Below, one piece after another: positions 37,921-44,425 of a DNA stretch of 64,000 bases; the first letter of the stretch is position 1, and each line of letters starts with the position of its first letter. The notes below the pieces were generated by a model, which was not told the DNA's origin, made no database searches, and worked only from the letters and a program-made list of their open reading frames with translations. This DNA is from an uncultured Sulfolobales archaeon (GTDB lineage Archaea > Thermoproteota > Thermoprotei_A > Sulfolobales > NBVN01), in NCBI GenBank assembly GCA_937949785.1, contig CALEDH010000007.1:1-64000 (forward strand), written 5' to 3'. Both the position numbers and the translations under genes were made by a program.

Positions 37921-39102
37921 TTATACGAAGCGTGTGAACCCTAAGACTAATAACGTAGCTGTAATCCCTACCGTAGCCCACTGAATGATATTGCCTAACC
38001 TAACCATACCGTATTTCCTGAAGACCTCCTGAACTATCTTACCTCCGTCAGTCACTACTAGCGGTGCGGCGTTAAAAACCGCTAAGCTAATATTAATTAC
38101 GTAGGCCCAGTATAAGACCCTGCTTAAGTAGTATAGGTATATCGGGGTTGTTGGTAGGAGGGCCTCACCGACCAGTATTCCCAGCCTAGATATGTTAGCC
38201 TGCTTATGAACTACGACTAATTCGTTACCTAGCAAGTTGTTGATCAGTACGTCGTCGACTAACGTTTTAAACCTAGATATATTTAATATCAGCGTGGTGT
38301 CCTTATCAGCTATTGATTTTAGGTAATTCCTTAGGTCTGCTAAGCTCTTAATCCTAGTCCCGTTGATATCATAGATTACTGAGGGGGTCGGTAGGTCTGC
38401 CTTAATAGCAGGTGCTTCAGGACCTAAGTTCCTATCCAACTCATATACTACAACTGCTGAGTACTGCTCTATCACAGTAGTTACTGAGCTCATAGTGGTT
38501 AGGAATATCAACGCTAGTATAGTATTCGATAACACACCGGCTGAAAGCACCCTAATCTTACTGCTAAGCGAGGATTTGTTGAACGCCTCATCATCGATCC
38601 TAACATATGCGAATGGGAATATGAGGAATACCCCTAAACCCCATGACACTACCTTAATCCCCTCATTCAAAGCTGTTAAGGCATGTAGGAGTTCATGGGC
38701 AATCACAGCCACACCTATACCTACTAGGAAGTAGGGTATGCTACCACCGCTGATTGTAACGCCTGGAACCACAGGTACGAACGGTGATGGAATAACCTCC
38801 CGAGCTACTACTAAGGCCTTAATAACATCAATAACTGATGGAACTACTATCCAGTAAAATAAAAGTATAAGTATAACTAAGTTAATCAACCCCACAACAC
38901 CTACGGCCCTACCAACTACTTCAGACCTCCTAACCCTAAACCCTACAGACCTCCTAACATCTAGCATTACAGTAAATACACCTACTGTAACGCCCATCTT
39001 CTTAAGCCTCGACGACAGCGAACCCCAATAATTAAACATCAGATACAAAAGCAGCTCAACAACTAATACTGCGAACATACCTTCTAAGACCACATCAAAC
39101 AC
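37921..39102 (-). CDS. M50 family intramembrane zinc metalloprotease
   Basis: A 393-residue site-2-protease-like protein. The zinc motif HELLH is at residues 136-140 in a membrane helix; the second active-site motif NAAPLVVTDGG, with its Asp ligand, lies near residues 355-365. Between them is a PDZ-like external domain (IYDINGTRIKSLADLRNYLK-type strand and helix). Such proteases cleave membrane-bound substrates, for example anti-sigma factors in bacteria; an archaeal target is not known. GTG start at 39100-39102. Confidence 0.88.
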   Translation of the reverse strand: MFDVVLEGMFAVLVVELLLYLMFNYWGSLSSRLKKMGVTVGVFTVMLDVRRSVGFRVRRSEVVGRAVGVVGLINLVILILLFYWIVVPSVIDVIKALVVAREVIPSPFVPVVPGVTISGGSIPYFLVGIGVAVIAHELLHALTALNEGIKVVSWGLGVFLIFPFAYVRIDDEAFNKSSLSSKIRVLSAGVLSNTILALIFLTTMSSVTTVIEQYSAVVVYELDRNLGPEAPAIKADLPTPSVIYDINGTRIKSLADLRNYLKSIADKDTTLILNISRFKTLVDDVLINNLLGNELVVVHKQANISRLGILVGEALLPTTPIYLYYLSRVLYWAYVINISLAVFNAAPLVVTDGGKIVQEVFRKYGMVRLGNIIQWATVGITATLLVLGFTRFV

Positions 39103-39620: not shown

Positions 39621-40301
39621 TTAAGAATGGCATTTGTTAATTATTAAGTCAGACTTACTTACTAAGGTATCTATGTAGAACTTAGCATTGCTTATGAAGT
39701 CATTAAACCTCAGTATCGGTACTACGAACGAACCGCCTACATATCCATGCATGACGTCCGTTAAGGTTACGATGACCGGGATTAAAACCTTAGCCTTACT
39801 TAAAACTCTATACTTACTTGTAGTTGGGGCGCATTCCTCAGCTAATCTCATAACCTTAGCTCTATGTTCTCCGGCAATGCGGTTTAGCCTCCCTTTCTTA
39901 CTGTAGCCCGGACCCCAGTGCTTGCAGTCCACAACTATTGCAATGCCTGATGTATGATCAACCCCTAACACATCTACCTCATACCTCCTACGGCTAAACC
40001 TTAAGTTCCTTAAGACGTGGTAACCATTTAAACTTAAGTACTCATTAACTAATTCCTCGAAGTCCTTCCAACTAAGCGGTTTTGAAATAACTTCAACATC
40101 TAAACCTAGTCTAACTAACTCTAAGGCTAGCTTAACGGCGGACTTAACACATACTTCGTTATTTAAGCTTAGGTATATGAGTTCTTTACTCGTTAAGTAT
40201 TCCATCAATTCTTCAGAGACCTCACTGCTCTGCACACACGGGCTTACGGAAAACCTACTGTATAGCCTTGTAAGCCCTTTTAGGAGGTCAGACGAGAACA
40301 C
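39621..40301 (-). CDS. Mrr/RecB-like PD-(D/E)xK nuclease
   Basis: A 226-residue protein with a PD-(D/E)xK nuclease core: Glu82/83 in the first helix (FEELVNEYL), Glu108 and Asp110 in YEVDVLGVD, and Asp125-x-Lys127 in AIVVDCKHWG. This wording is typical of archaeal Mrr-like nucleases that act on foreign or modified DNA, or of repair endonucleases; the N-terminal 70 residues form a small helical (winged-helix-like) part. No methyltransferase is nearby, so a classical restriction-modification system is not supported. GTG start at 40299-40301. Confidence 0.78.
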   Translation of the reverse strand: MFSSDLLKGLTRLYSRFSVSPCVQSSEVSEELMEYLTSKELIYLSLNNEVCVKSAVKLALELVRLGLDVEVISKPLSWKDFEELVNEYLSLNGYHVLRNLRFSRRRYEVDVLGVDHTSGIAIVVDCKHWGPGYSKKGRLNRIAGEHRAKVMRLAEECAPTTSKYRVLSKAKVLIPVIVTLTDVMHGYVGGSFVVPILRFNDFISNAKFYIDTLVSKSDLIINKCHS

Positions 40302-40470: not shown

Positions 40471-41421
40471 ATGAGCTCAAATCTGGATAGACTTATCAGG
40501 CTTATAGATTCGGCGGACTTTAAAACTTACAGTAAATTAGTACTTACGTCAACTAATGAAGACCTCAGCGTTCTGAGGAGTGTGTTAGGAGGTACTAACG
40601 TTATATACTTACTTATAGGTGATGAAGTCCAACCGATAACTCAGAAATGTTTTTGGTTCTCAAAGCTTGGGGACCCCTCCTACGACACACCTACGAAGCT
40701 GAAGCTCTACGCCATAAGCGAGGTTGAGGAGGCAATAACTTTCATCGAGTTAACACCTCTCCACCTACTGATTTCCTATGAGTTAATGAGGGAGTTAAGG
40801 AGGGTTAACCCGAATTGTAGATTAATTGCTGTGGTGAAAGTACCTTCTAACCAATCTGAGTGTGACCTTATTAACTTACTGACCTATGCAGCATCTCTAA
40901 TTAAGGGGGGCACCTTTAACTTCATGCTTTTAATCAATAAGGACTTAATAGAATACTTAAAACTACTTAATATTGATAGTGGCCTACTTCACCTATGCAT
41001 AGCTGATATGCTTGGACACTCCTCAAATATAGGGGAGTACCTAAGCAATTATAGGAAGGTAGGTGTGTTTACATGCTTTCCAAAAGCTGATTTAGAGGTA
41101 TTCGGCAGCCTCGTAAACATCATTAGGTTTACACATCACTTAATGCGTGACTACAGCGGTCTCATCAACACCGCCTTAGTAATAACCCGTAACTTAAAGG
41201 ATTTAAATTCTGAGATAGCTGATGTGAGAGATCGGTTAGGGGCCGGAGATCTAAGATTAATTAACGTTAGAGATGGTGATAGTTTAATAACAGTGATAAC
41301 TGTTGAGCCTAATAACGACTTAATTCTAAGACTGCGGGAGTTTATCATTAAGGCATATGATGTGATTAGGGAGTCTCAACTGGATATCTCCCTAGCAGAC
41401 CTAGCTGAGGTTGTAGGTTAA
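40471..41421 (+). CDS. Unrecognised soluble protein, first gene of a three-gene operon
   Basis: A 316-residue soluble alpha-beta protein. Alternating strands and helices are visible (LVLTSTNEDLSVLRSVL, VIYLLIGDE, CRLIAVVKVPSN, FNFMLLINKDLIEYLK, NTALVITRNLKDL, LITVITVEPN), suggesting a Rossmann-like or tubulin-like order. Neither a P-loop nor the tubulin GGGTGS signature is present, so no NTPase is claimed. ATG start at 40471 sits three to four bases after a GGTGATGG ribosome-binding site. The stop overlaps the start of the next gene (TAATG). I do not recognise the family. Confidence 0.7.
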   Translation: MSSNLDRLIRLIDSADFKTYSKLVLTSTNEDLSVLRSVLGGTNVIYLLIGDEVQPITQKCFWFSKLGDPSYDTPTKLKLYAISEVEEAITFIELTPLHLLISYELMRELRRVNPNCRLIAVVKVPSNQSECDLINLLTYAASLIKGGTFNFMLLINKDLIEYLKLLNIDSGLLHLCIADMLGHSSNIGEYLSNYRKVGVFTCFPKADLEVFGSLVNIIRFTHHLMRDYSGLINTALVITRNLKDLNSEIADVRDRLGAGDLRLINVRDGDSLITVITVEPNNDLILRLREFIIKAYDVIRESQLDISLADLAEVVG

Positions 41422-43574
41422 TGAGGCTCTATGAAGTATCGGGTTTGGCTTTATGTGTTATATCGTTCAACCTCCTAACCTACTCATTAGGTTTTGCTAA
41501 GAACGTCGCGATATTCATAGCGGTATCCCTCCTCCACGCTGCGTTATTAGCGCTTACCTCATTCGTTATCTTCAAAGACGTTAGGAAGGGGTTAGCCGTA
41601 ACGTATTTATTCATAACGCTAACCTTCATGTACACGTATAGCGTAGCTCCTCCTCTAGTCTTCAGGTCAGACCTAGAGCGCTACGTACTACTCATAATAT
41701 CACTAATTTCCGGTCTAGCAGCAGGTGTCCTAACGCTTCAGGGAGGTCGTGAGGTCTCATTAGCTCAAACACTGATAGTTTTATCGCTTCCAGCAGCTAT
41801 ATTAGATGGTGGGGGATTCCTACCCATCGGTTTAATGGCCCCGCACATCTTATTCCTTAGGACGGCGGCTAATGGTTTGAGGTTTAACGGTATTTCCTTC
41901 CTACTATACCTCCCACACCTACTCCTACCTATGCTCGTAGTCGATACATCGTTAGTACCCCATATAAATCTATGTAATGTCCTCTACGGTGTTGGGAGCG
42001 AGTTAAACCTACTCCCCACCATGTTATTAGTTAACGCTGTTTTCTTAGCTTTTAACGCAGCGTATCATAAGTTCTTAAAGTACCGCCTACCTAAGATAGT
42101 TGAACTTAAGCATATAGTACATCACTCCTTAGCCTCATATATGATGTCGCTAACCATGATATCCGTAATACCTATGCTTGCAGGCATATTCCTACCGGTC
42201 AGACCCCCTAACTCCTACTTAAGCATACTATACGCTTCAATCCCTGCGTTCCCCATCTCATTACTAGGTAGTTCGTGGAGTCTTGACTTAGAATTAAGTC
42301 CTATGAGGGATGAGTTAAACAGTAATTTCCAGCAGGTTAGGAACGAGTTAAACACACATGCATACGTCTTAGATGTCCTAGCGGTAAGCCCTATATTTAA
42401 AGCTAAAATCGGTGGGTGCCTCAGTACGTTAGAGCGTGTAGGTAAGCAGTTAGACTCTATTGAAGTGTTCTTAAGTAAGCCGATATTATCACAAAGCAGT
42501 ATCCTTAATACCGCTACCTTATTGATGAGGCTTAGAAGCGATTTAGCGGGGATTAGAGATCAGGTAGTAAGTACGTATCAATCAGTAGTTAATGAGGTTA
42601 AAGAGCTCTACAAATGGTATATACGTATTAACGGTTTGAGAGATGTTGAGTTAGATGAGTTAATTATACTAGCAGAACATGTTAAACGCTTCGAAGACAT
42701 TCCAAGCATTAGTGAAGGACTTACTAAGACGTTAAAGAAGGTTTGCGAGCTATATGTGAGGACTTTAAATAGGTTAGCTATTATTGTTGAGAGGGTCTTA
42801 GACGTTAAGGTAGGTGTTAGTACGTTAGCACAGTGCTCTGATGAAGCACTGCTACTAAGTGTTGTTGGGACTTATAGGAATTTACTGGAGGATATGTTAG
42901 CCAGTAATGAGTTAACCTCTAAAATATCTAAGATGGTTAATGATTTATCGAATTTAAAGAGCTCTATTGATAAGCTTATCGAAGAATATACTGGTAAGGT
43001 GGGTTCAGACCTACTTAACTCACTTAAAGAACTCTCAAATACTTTGAGAGTCCCTCAACATCAGGAAGTTAACATGTATAAGGTCCTCACCAACATGATG
43101 AACACATGCGATGTTTTAAGAAATATCTTAGCTAAGCTGGTTAGGTCGTTAAGTTATGAATTAAGCAGTAGGGAGGAATACCTCGTAAGAGCTGCGAATA
43201 GTTTGGGGATAGACTACAATCTCTTAACACCTATACCTCCAGACGTTATGAGTAAGTCTTTAAGTAGTCTAACAGCTTTTCAGGACATACTAACATGTTA
43301 CGACTTAATTAACTGGATTAGTTCTAAGGGTTTAGGACTTATTCACAGTCACTTACTCTACATAGAAATGTATGTTAGAGTACTCCGCCGTATTAACTAC
43401 CTACAGCTCCTCATGAAGTACTTCGATGATAGGTTAGAGCACGGTGATGTGGTATTAGATGACGTCCCACTATCTAAGGAGTCTCTGAAGTGGTTTGTTA
43501 ACGTATATGTAGGTGTTAGGAAGGACGTCGTACTCGACGGGAATACCTTAAAGAGGTTAAGAGGTAGGTATTGA
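41421..43574 (+). CDS. Unrecognised large polytopic membrane protein with a long helical cytosolic tail
   Basis: A 717-residue protein. The first 290 residues hold about eight to nine membrane helices; residues 295-717 are soluble, almost entirely helical and rich in Leu, Ser and charged residues, with heptad-like patches (for example LNSNFQQVRNELNTHAY and MVNDLSNLKSSIDKLIEEY). The layout suggests a membrane platform with coiled-coil arms into the cytoplasm. No known domain is recognised. It is coupled by stop-start overlaps to genes on both sides. Confidence 0.7.
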   Translation: MRLYEVSGLALCVISFNLLTYSLGFAKNVAIFIAVSLLHAALLALTSFVIFKDVRKGLAVTYLFITLTFMYTYSVAPPLVFRSDLERYVLLIISLISGLAAGVLTLQGGREVSLAQTLIVLSLPAAILDGGGFLPIGLMAPHILFLRTAANGLRFNGISFLLYLPHLLLPMLVVDTSLVPHINLCNVLYGVGSELNLLPTMLLVNAVFLAFNAAYHKFLKYRLPKIVELKHIVHHSLASYMMSLTMISVIPMLAGIFLPVRPPNSYLSILYASIPAFPISLLGSSWSLDLELSPMRDELNSNFQQVRNELNTHAYVLDVLAVSPIFKAKIGGCLSTLERVGKQLDSIEVFLSKPILSQSSILNTATLLMRLRSDLAGIRDQVVSTYQSVVNEVKELYKWYIRINGLRDVELDELIILAEHVKRFEDIPSISEGLTKTLKKVCELYVRTLNRLAIIVERVLDVKVGVSTLAQCSDEALLLSVVGTYRNLLEDMLASNELTSKISKMVNDLSNLKSSIDKLIEEYTGKVGSDLLNSLKELSNTLRVPQHQEVNMYKVLTNMMNTCDVLRNILAKLVRSLSYELSSREEYLVRAANSLGIDYNLLTPIPPDVMSKSLSSLTAFQDILTCYDLINWISSKGLGLIHSHLLYIEMYVRVLRRINYLQLLMKYFDDRLEHGDVVLDDVPLSKESLKWFVNVYVGVRKDVVLDGNTLKRLRGRY

Positions 43575-44425
43575 TGGTGCTGACAAGATGTGTGGTTGAG
43601 GGTGAAGTATTTGTATGTGATATATCGTTAATAGGTGGTAGGATAGTAATCCATAACGTCCCTAAGGGTTTAGTATACGATGTAAGGGTCTCAGACATCG
43701 TAGGCATATATAAGAGGGATAACATGTTAATCGTTAAAACATCTGCTGAGGAGGTATTAATTAACGTTTCCGGGGCTTCATCATCTCTGATTAACGAGGT
43801 AGGTAGGGTGGTAGAGCTTAAGGTTAGATATGATGAACTCTCAGCAACTACTAAGGACTTACTACTCGCTACTGCTAAAGCCCTCCACGTAATAGTTGAC
43901 TTAGTTAAGGCCTTCTACGAAGACTTCGTGGATAGGTGGATTTCAGCCCTACATCATGTTAAGGAGTTATACCGCATTTCCGAGGTTTTAATTGTTTATA
44001 ATATTAACATAAAGCAGCACGTAGATGAGTTAAACCGTAATGTTGGCTTAAGAAGTGTAGGGGGTGTTAAGAGGGCTGTTAGGGAGCTGACGTTTAACAT
44101 GATTCGCTTAGTTGAAGAACGTGTTAGGTCATTGCTTACTTTTGAAGACTTAAAGCCTTTAATCAATTTAGTAGTGATTACCTACGTAGCCAGGCTTGCA
44201 TACCTAACTAATCGACGTATAGAGGCGTTAAATGCTGAGGAAGACTTGATGAGGGAATGCACTTCCGAGATCTACGTTAAGATGCTTAACAGGCCTGAAT
44301 TAGATATATGTAGGAACTTCATGGAGATGTTAAGAAGTGGTGATCCCTACAAAGCCGTTGAGGTGTTCTTAGATAACTACCTAAGGTTATTAGATGGGGT
44401 TATTAAGAAGTTGTTAAGTAGTTAA
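43574..44425 (+). CDS. Unrecognised protein with a beta-rich head and helical tail
   Basis: About 283 residues. The first 95 are beta-rich (GEVFVCDISLIGGRIVIHN, then VSDIVGIYKRDNMLIVKT), resembling a PH-like or small barrel domain; the rest is helical with coiled-coil potential (LNRNVGLRSVGGVKRAVREL). No membrane helix is seen. ATG at 43574 overlaps the TGA of the membrane-protein gene; a TTG three bases earlier is the alternative start. The protein probably binds the cytosolic side of the upstream product. Family unknown. Confidence 0.68.
   Translation: MVLTRCVVEGEVFVCDISLIGGRIVIHNVPKGLVYDVRVSDIVGIYKRDNMLIVKTSAEEVLINVSGASSSLINEVGRVVELKVRYDELSATTKDLLLATAKALHVIVDLVKAFYEDFVDRWISALHHVKELYRISEVLIVYNINIKQHVDELNRNVGLRSVGGVKRAVRELTFNMIRLVEERVRSLLTFEDLKPLINLVVITYVARLAYLTNRRIEALNAEEDLMRECTSEIYVKMLNRPELDICRNFMEMLRSGDPYKAVEVFLDNYLRLLDGVIKKLLSS

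Follow-up and report, generated by a model that had tools for sequence, protein, structure and literature searches.

A three-gene Sulfolobales operon related to the partners of archaeal FtsZl1, in a family where FtsZl1 is not detected

Which system does an operon belong to when none of its three proteins matches a known family? The question is raised by G1-G2-G3, a gene set in a 64,000-nucleotide stretch of DNA from an uncultured Sulfolobales archaeon, called the window below (contig C7 of a 1.39 Mb genome, 87% complete). All three genes are open reading frames (ORFs) on the plus strand. G1 (40471..41421) encodes 316 amino acids and is described below as a degenerate tubulin/FtsZ-fold protein, G2 (41421..43574) encodes a polytopic membrane protein of 717 amino acids, and G3 (43574..44425) encodes 283 amino acids. 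The stop codon of G1 overlaps the start codon of G2 in TAATG (41419..41423, plus strand), and that of G2 overlaps the start of G3 in TGATG (43572..43576, plus strand), in agreement with an earlier note on this DNA that had described three coupled genes. G3 more probably starts at the ATG at 43574 than at the TTG at 43571, which would give 284 amino acids. Probably, the operon is what remains of an ancient FtsZl1 (Tubulin_2) system of archaea, its membrane-anchor and pseudo-tubulin half having been kept after the loss of the guanosine triphosphatase (GTPase). In the textbooks, Crenarchaea stand for cells that have neither tubulin nor FtsZ, and the sporadic FtsZl1 of Sulfolobales is the noted exception.

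Searches of Pfam, NCBIfam and PDB sequences, using the single window proteins and profiles of their family, gave nothing at cut-off and coiled-coil noise only, so that the earlier description of the three proteins as matching no known family was fair. Weak matches in other families were set aside: those of G1 are NMN-adenylyltransferase-like, cover only profile positions 25-83 at E 0.03-0.1 and are due to chance, and those of G3 are unrelated proteins. The operon is thus unrecognised within its own family, as the note had it, but not beyond, where the profiles of relatives place it with the archaeal FtsZl1 gene set. Families and genera are given here by their numbers in the genome collection searched (f1, g1 and so on), and G, L and C numbers denote genomes, loci and contigs.

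A search with PF00091 turned up Tubulin_2 proteins of about 880 residues in f3 and f4. In f3, the genes adjoining Tubulin_2 encode a 335-amino-acid alpha/beta protein, an 855-amino-acid membrane protein that carries IDELPFTKDHSRWMMKLY close to its end, and a 296-amino-acid beta-headed protein; they are the trio. Five-gene loci composed of a signal-anchored surface protein (S), FtsZl1 and G1/G2/G3 are present within the order, in f3, f9 and f11, and elsewhere in the phylum, in f12, f18 and f64. In f9 the order is S-FtsZl1-G1-G2-G3, which equals the window order with two genes in front. In genome G041 of f4, S and FtsZl1 are located on a different contig from the trio, and f24 has FtsZl1 without G2. 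The comparison of gene order across Thermoprotei that the note had proposed therefore gives a positive answer, with the order kept in the whole family of the window, related trios in four other families of the order and further ones in at least three families at the level of the phylum. The S proteins have no Pfam match and contain a signal peptide, an extracytoplasmic domain and a C-terminal membrane helix, followed by a conserved cytosolic helix, EDQIKDLEGL..RASKIDR (for example L342:7855-8961). In the trio-associated clade, all FtsZl1 proteins examined have both nucleotide-binding loops intact, the T1-type GxGxxGxN (GLGGxGxN-type) as well as GGGTGSG.

At the level of sequence, G2 provides the strongest and firmest link to the FtsZl1 operons. 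G2 of the window's family aligns with G2 of these operons in hhalign at a probability (P) of 99.7% and E 4e-27, with unrelated control families at about 22-33 score units in such comparisons. Moreover, a hidden Markov model (HMM) built from the family alone matches G2 adjoining FtsZl1 in f11 at E 1e-8 to 1.7e-13. The membrane part of G2 (41442..42275, plus strand) is composed of about 10 helices. Averaged over 18 homologues, hydropathy peaks fall at residues 17, 39, 67, 96, 123, 141, 163, 206, 246 and 277; the helical membrane part described in the note is therefore present, but its count of 8-9 helices is too low. The positive-inside pattern points to an N-in/C-in layout, and the positive charges of G2 fall in the loops that this layout places inside. 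The helical tail (42288..43571, plus strand; residues 290-717, about 430 residues) is therefore predicted to be cytosolic. In the family alignment of G2, C442, C472 and P683 do not vary, and close to the C-terminus lies a motif with the consensus [DE][LI]PF/L (43458..43496, plus strand; here DDVPLSKESLKWF). A C-terminal motif of the [DE][LI]PF type is common to G2 of the other families examined.

Within the window's family, G1-G2-G3 is found in unchanged order in genera g1, g2, g3, g4, g6, g7, g8, g9 and g10, and this recurrence across genera shows that the three frames have not arisen by chance. The trio occurs in 18/18 family genomes of at least 83% completeness. It evolves fast, as the identity to a same-genus genome is 50/40/50% for G1/G2/G3 and 58-79% for the flanking genes. 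That G1 and G2 are fused in g8, as the open-frame figure had suggested, was rejected because a stop codon lies between them, and a viral origin was rejected after two scans of viral contigs came back empty.

Outside this family, the trio-associated FtsZl1 clade occurs in 9/183 genomes of the order, and full-length G2 is found in the same 9. The chance value of 2e-15 for this co-occurrence is inflated, because the G2 profile was built with 6/9 of these genomes; we rely on the 3/9 not used and on the absence of full-length G2 from FtsZl1-free genomes outside the family. The co-occurrence bears on a different reading of the operon, in which the trio is independent of any cytoskeleton, G2 being a transporter or secretion channel with G1 and G3 as its cytosolic subunits, and in which a common pathway of surface assembly accounts for the linkage to FtsZl1 elsewhere. 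The roughly 10 membrane helices of G2 fit such a channel, as does the persistence of the trio without FtsZl1 in about 25 genomes with varied neighbourhoods. Yet G2 resembles no transporter family in Pfam and family-profile searches, about 60% of it is helical tail, no conserved ATPase or GTPase partner lies beside it in the family, and outside the family it occurs only together with FtsZl1. We consider a transporter unlikely.

By sequence and profile homology, the wider G1 family belongs to the tubulin/FtsZ superfamily. A profile of 17 G1 homologues from other families, searched against all PDB sequences, has CetZ2 (4b45, E 2.5e-7) and CetZ (3zid, 7e-7) at the top, and 7/8 of its PDB matches are FtsZ or tubulin. 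Pfam Tubulin (PF00091) is the top family for these homologues, matched by 6/17 with a best E of 3.8e-4, and the only one matched by more than one of them. In hhalign, the G1 homologues align with archaeal FtsZ at P 87-89% and score 53, compared with scores of at most 22 and P below 4% for unrelated control families, and G1 of the window's family joins the homologues at P 79-85%. In addition, an AlphaFold model of G1 from L123, the hub member of the family, was built from a 4-sequence alignment (predicted local distance difference test, pLDDT, 51.7; predicted template modelling score, pTM, 0.55). In Foldseek it has 75 PDB matches at E<=1e-3, and all 50 of those listed are FtsZ, CetZ, TubZ or tubulin, with a best E of 2e-9 over 320 columns. 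Taken alone, the model evidence for a tubulin fold is suggestive.

The alignment indicates that G1 has lost both loops that bind guanosine triphosphate (GTP). The window G1 contains neither T1 (GGxGxN) nor T4 (GGGTGSG). T4 (GGGTG[ST]G) is absent from every G1 aligned, with a trace only (DGVGSA/DGIGSA) in f12 and f64, and FIELTPLHLLISYEL of the window G1 aligns with SSIWDGVGSALLPAL of the f12 homologues at the place of the FtsZ GGGTGTG loop. G1 is not a remnant of FtsZl1 itself; this candidate was rejected, since G1 of the window's family is unlike FtsZl1 and G1 coexists with FtsZl1 elsewhere. As a separate observation, G1 of f11 and f4 (L252:13476-14507, L255:3971-5002, L257:13383-14393, L323:7015-8088) carries an N-terminal zinc-ribbon-like segment, C..GH....C..CG, which is absent from G1 of other families.

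G3 is composed of a beta-rich head with two nearly invariant cysteines (C6 and C15), followed by a helical domain, as seen in the family alignment. Between the window's family and the rest, hhalign gives P 55-94% depending on the group, and 64-94% for the nearer groups beside FtsZl1; the family HMM matches G3 of an FtsZl1 locus at E 4.9e-5. The head may be PH-like. One G3 homologue matches bPH_3 at E 0.062, which is no evidence on its own.

Several observations weigh against descent of the operon from an FtsZl1 system. The link of the window G1 to FtsZ is indirect, running through its homologues, and the G1-to-G1 step reaches P 79-85%, not 99%; compared straight with FtsZ in hhalign, the G1 profile of the window's family shows no similarity. 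Because of the low confidence of the L123 model, the window's own G1 was modelled as a replicate, and this second model (pLDDT 49, pTM 0.43) has mixed Rossmann-like Foldseek matches with CetZ at ranks 6 and 11, so that both models are of low confidence (pLDDT 52 and 49). G3 is linked to f11 and f18 by position alone, and G2 is undetected in 7 family genomes (52-82% complete), including all 3 of genus g5.

Alternatively, G1 could be another Rossmann-like protein, of the RCK, small GTPase or dehydrogenase type, with the trio still a partner of FtsZl1; it would then be soluble and regulate G2, for instance as a sensor through which a ligand controls a transporter. This possibility is favoured by the window G1 model, which places MthK RCK domains and Rag GTPases ahead of CetZ, and by the lack of an FtsZ match for the family G1 profile alone. 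The wider G1 profile, however, finds CetZ, FtsZ and tubulin first in the PDB and has Pfam Tubulin as its sole multi-member family, the better model (L123) matches the tubulin family alone among the 50 listed, and the hhalign score of 53 for FtsZ stands against at most 22 for control families. A Rossmann-like G1 outside the tubulin superfamily is thus quite improbable.

The GTPase itself is not detected in the window's family. PF00091 has no match there, TIGR00065 (canonical FtsZ) has none in the sampled genomes of the order, and PF13809 together with a dedicated 880-position FtsZl1 profile yields coiled-coil noise only in 31/31 family genomes, several of them 97-99% complete. G2 is present in 24/31 of these genomes and FtsZl1 in 0/31. 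No vWA, P-loop GTPase or OmpA partner was found among the window neighbours by Pfam or among the neighbours read as ORFs. Since the trio is kept without FtsZl1, parsimony suggests that FtsZl1 was lost in this family. That an ordinary split-operon FtsZl1 system persists, its GTP-binding tubulin too diverged to find or lying in missing contigs, is highly improbable: most genomes are draft metagenome assemblies, and G041 does carry FtsZl1 and trio on different contigs, yet FtsZl1 proteins of different families resemble one another (hhalign E below 1e-66) far more than those of the trio do, and neither the FtsZl1 profiles nor PF00091 detect such a protein in the 31 genomes.

CdvA is present in 30/31 family genomes, and in the window's genome CdvA and CdvB are located on contig C9, away from the operon. 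The trio shows neither homology nor linkage to CdvA, CdvB or CdvC, and replacement of Cdv by the trio was rejected, as CdvA and CdvB are present.

In the proposed FtsZl1-derived system, G2 would serve as a membrane platform, with G1 and G3 bound to its cytosolic tail. In genomes that have FtsZl1, G1 may act as a non-hydrolysing partner that nucleates, caps, places or co-assembles with FtsZl1 filaments at the membrane, and S may relay information to the surface or from it. Within the window's family, G1-G2-G3 would work without a tubulin GTPase, as a nucleotide-free membrane scaffold with a part in shaping or organising the envelope, in parallel with division by Cdv/ESCRT. The division- or trafficking-type machine of the earlier note, with a membrane platform and cytosolic partners, thus pointed in the right direction and is partly supported; the role in membrane shaping is an inference. 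We give slightly less than even weight to the more specific proposal that the whole family keeps, in Cdv-dividing crenarchaea held to be free of tubulin, a tubulin-descended nucleotide-free module of pseudo-tubulin, 10-helix platform and third adaptor as a scaffold after the loss of the GTPase.

The neighbours of the trio vary between genera, which indicates that it travels as a unit. They are an M50 protease, a NERD-type nuclease and a HAD phosphatase in g1/g4/g6, lipoate-ligase-like and radical-SAM-like genes in g2/g8/g9 and an MGMT-like gene in g7, all named by eye except for the Pfam matches of the window neighbours. A functional tie to the protease, phosphatase or nuclease was rejected, as these neighbours change. 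In the window, a Mrr/NERD-type restriction-endonuclease-like protein is encoded upstream of the operon, in divergent orientation (39621-40301, minus strand), and is kept in g1, g4 and g6. An M50 site-2 protease with a PDZ-like segment also lies near the operon (37921-39102, minus strand), and similar genes are found near it in g1, g2, g4, g6 and g10.

Further FtsZ-like loci were seen in the collection. In G199 (f11), FtsZl1 (L257:8514-11170) is broken by a frameshift and an in-frame TAG beside an intact G2-G1-G3, the genome being a single contig, possibly an intermediate stage of GTPase decay with the trio retained, or a sequencing error. There is also a second FtsZl1 type (L254:6552-9707, L256:7807-10857, L253:7126-9777); its copies in L254 and L256 have 1,016-1,051 amino acids and 3 predicted membrane helices, reminiscent of SSO1376, and are adjoined by different large membrane proteins, without the trio. 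In G093 (f9), a 930-amino-acid FtsZl1-type protein of another subclade lies beside a likely vWA ORF (L260:3373-7198; FLIDLSLSICW, by eye), and one genome of the phylum, G292, has four FtsZ-like genes in tandem (contig C37:2696-6568).

Our comparison identifies membrane partners of FtsZl1 throughout the phylum and adds to its system a second, degenerate tubulin-fold protein, as judged by homology. It also points to one family that keeps the pseudo-tubulin/membrane half but not the GTPase, and where G1 may be a cytoskeletal protein that was kept although nucleotide binding was lost. The gene sets in Sulfolobales are now genetically testable. The open-access literature searched (subscription papers and supplements being outside its scope) holds no description of G1, G2, G3 or their gene set. 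The Culexarchaeia paper reports only two Sulfolobales with FtsZL1 (PMC9723716), and a study of FtsZ/tubulin evolution set Tubulin_2 proteins aside (PMC9871819).

Among known systems, canonical FtsZ shares with the G1 homologues the profile similarity described above (P 87-89%), but G1 lacks the GTP motifs and its hosts carry Cdv/ESCRT division genes. CetZ proteins are archaeal tubulin-like cell-shape proteins (PDB 4b45, 3zid). They are the best sequence match of the wider G1 family and similar in length, whereas G1 lacks the T1 and T4 GTP loops and its gene shares an operon with that of a dedicated membrane protein. Makarova & Koonin 2010 describe SSO1376 of Sulfolobus solfataricus as an extended FtsZ-like protein with a GTP motif and its own N-terminal membrane helices (PMC2875224). 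Like G1 it is a crenarchaeal member of the tubulin superfamily linked to the membrane, but the loci that resemble its description (L254, L256) are without the trio. The same paper defines FtsZl1 (Pfam Tubulin_2, PF13809), predicts a role in membrane remodelling, lists vWA proteins, P-loop GTPases, kinases and OmpA as operon partners and calls most remaining operon genes lineage-specific, without recognizable domains (PMC2875224). A second degenerate tubulin (G1) and the G2 and G3 families are not among the descriptions in the sections consulted, and the window's family differs further in having no detectable FtsZl1. The FtsZl1 operons are the system to which the locus is nearest, with related trios flanking FtsZl1 in f3, f9, f11, f12, f18 and f64, membrane-associated partners and predicted membrane remodelling in common.

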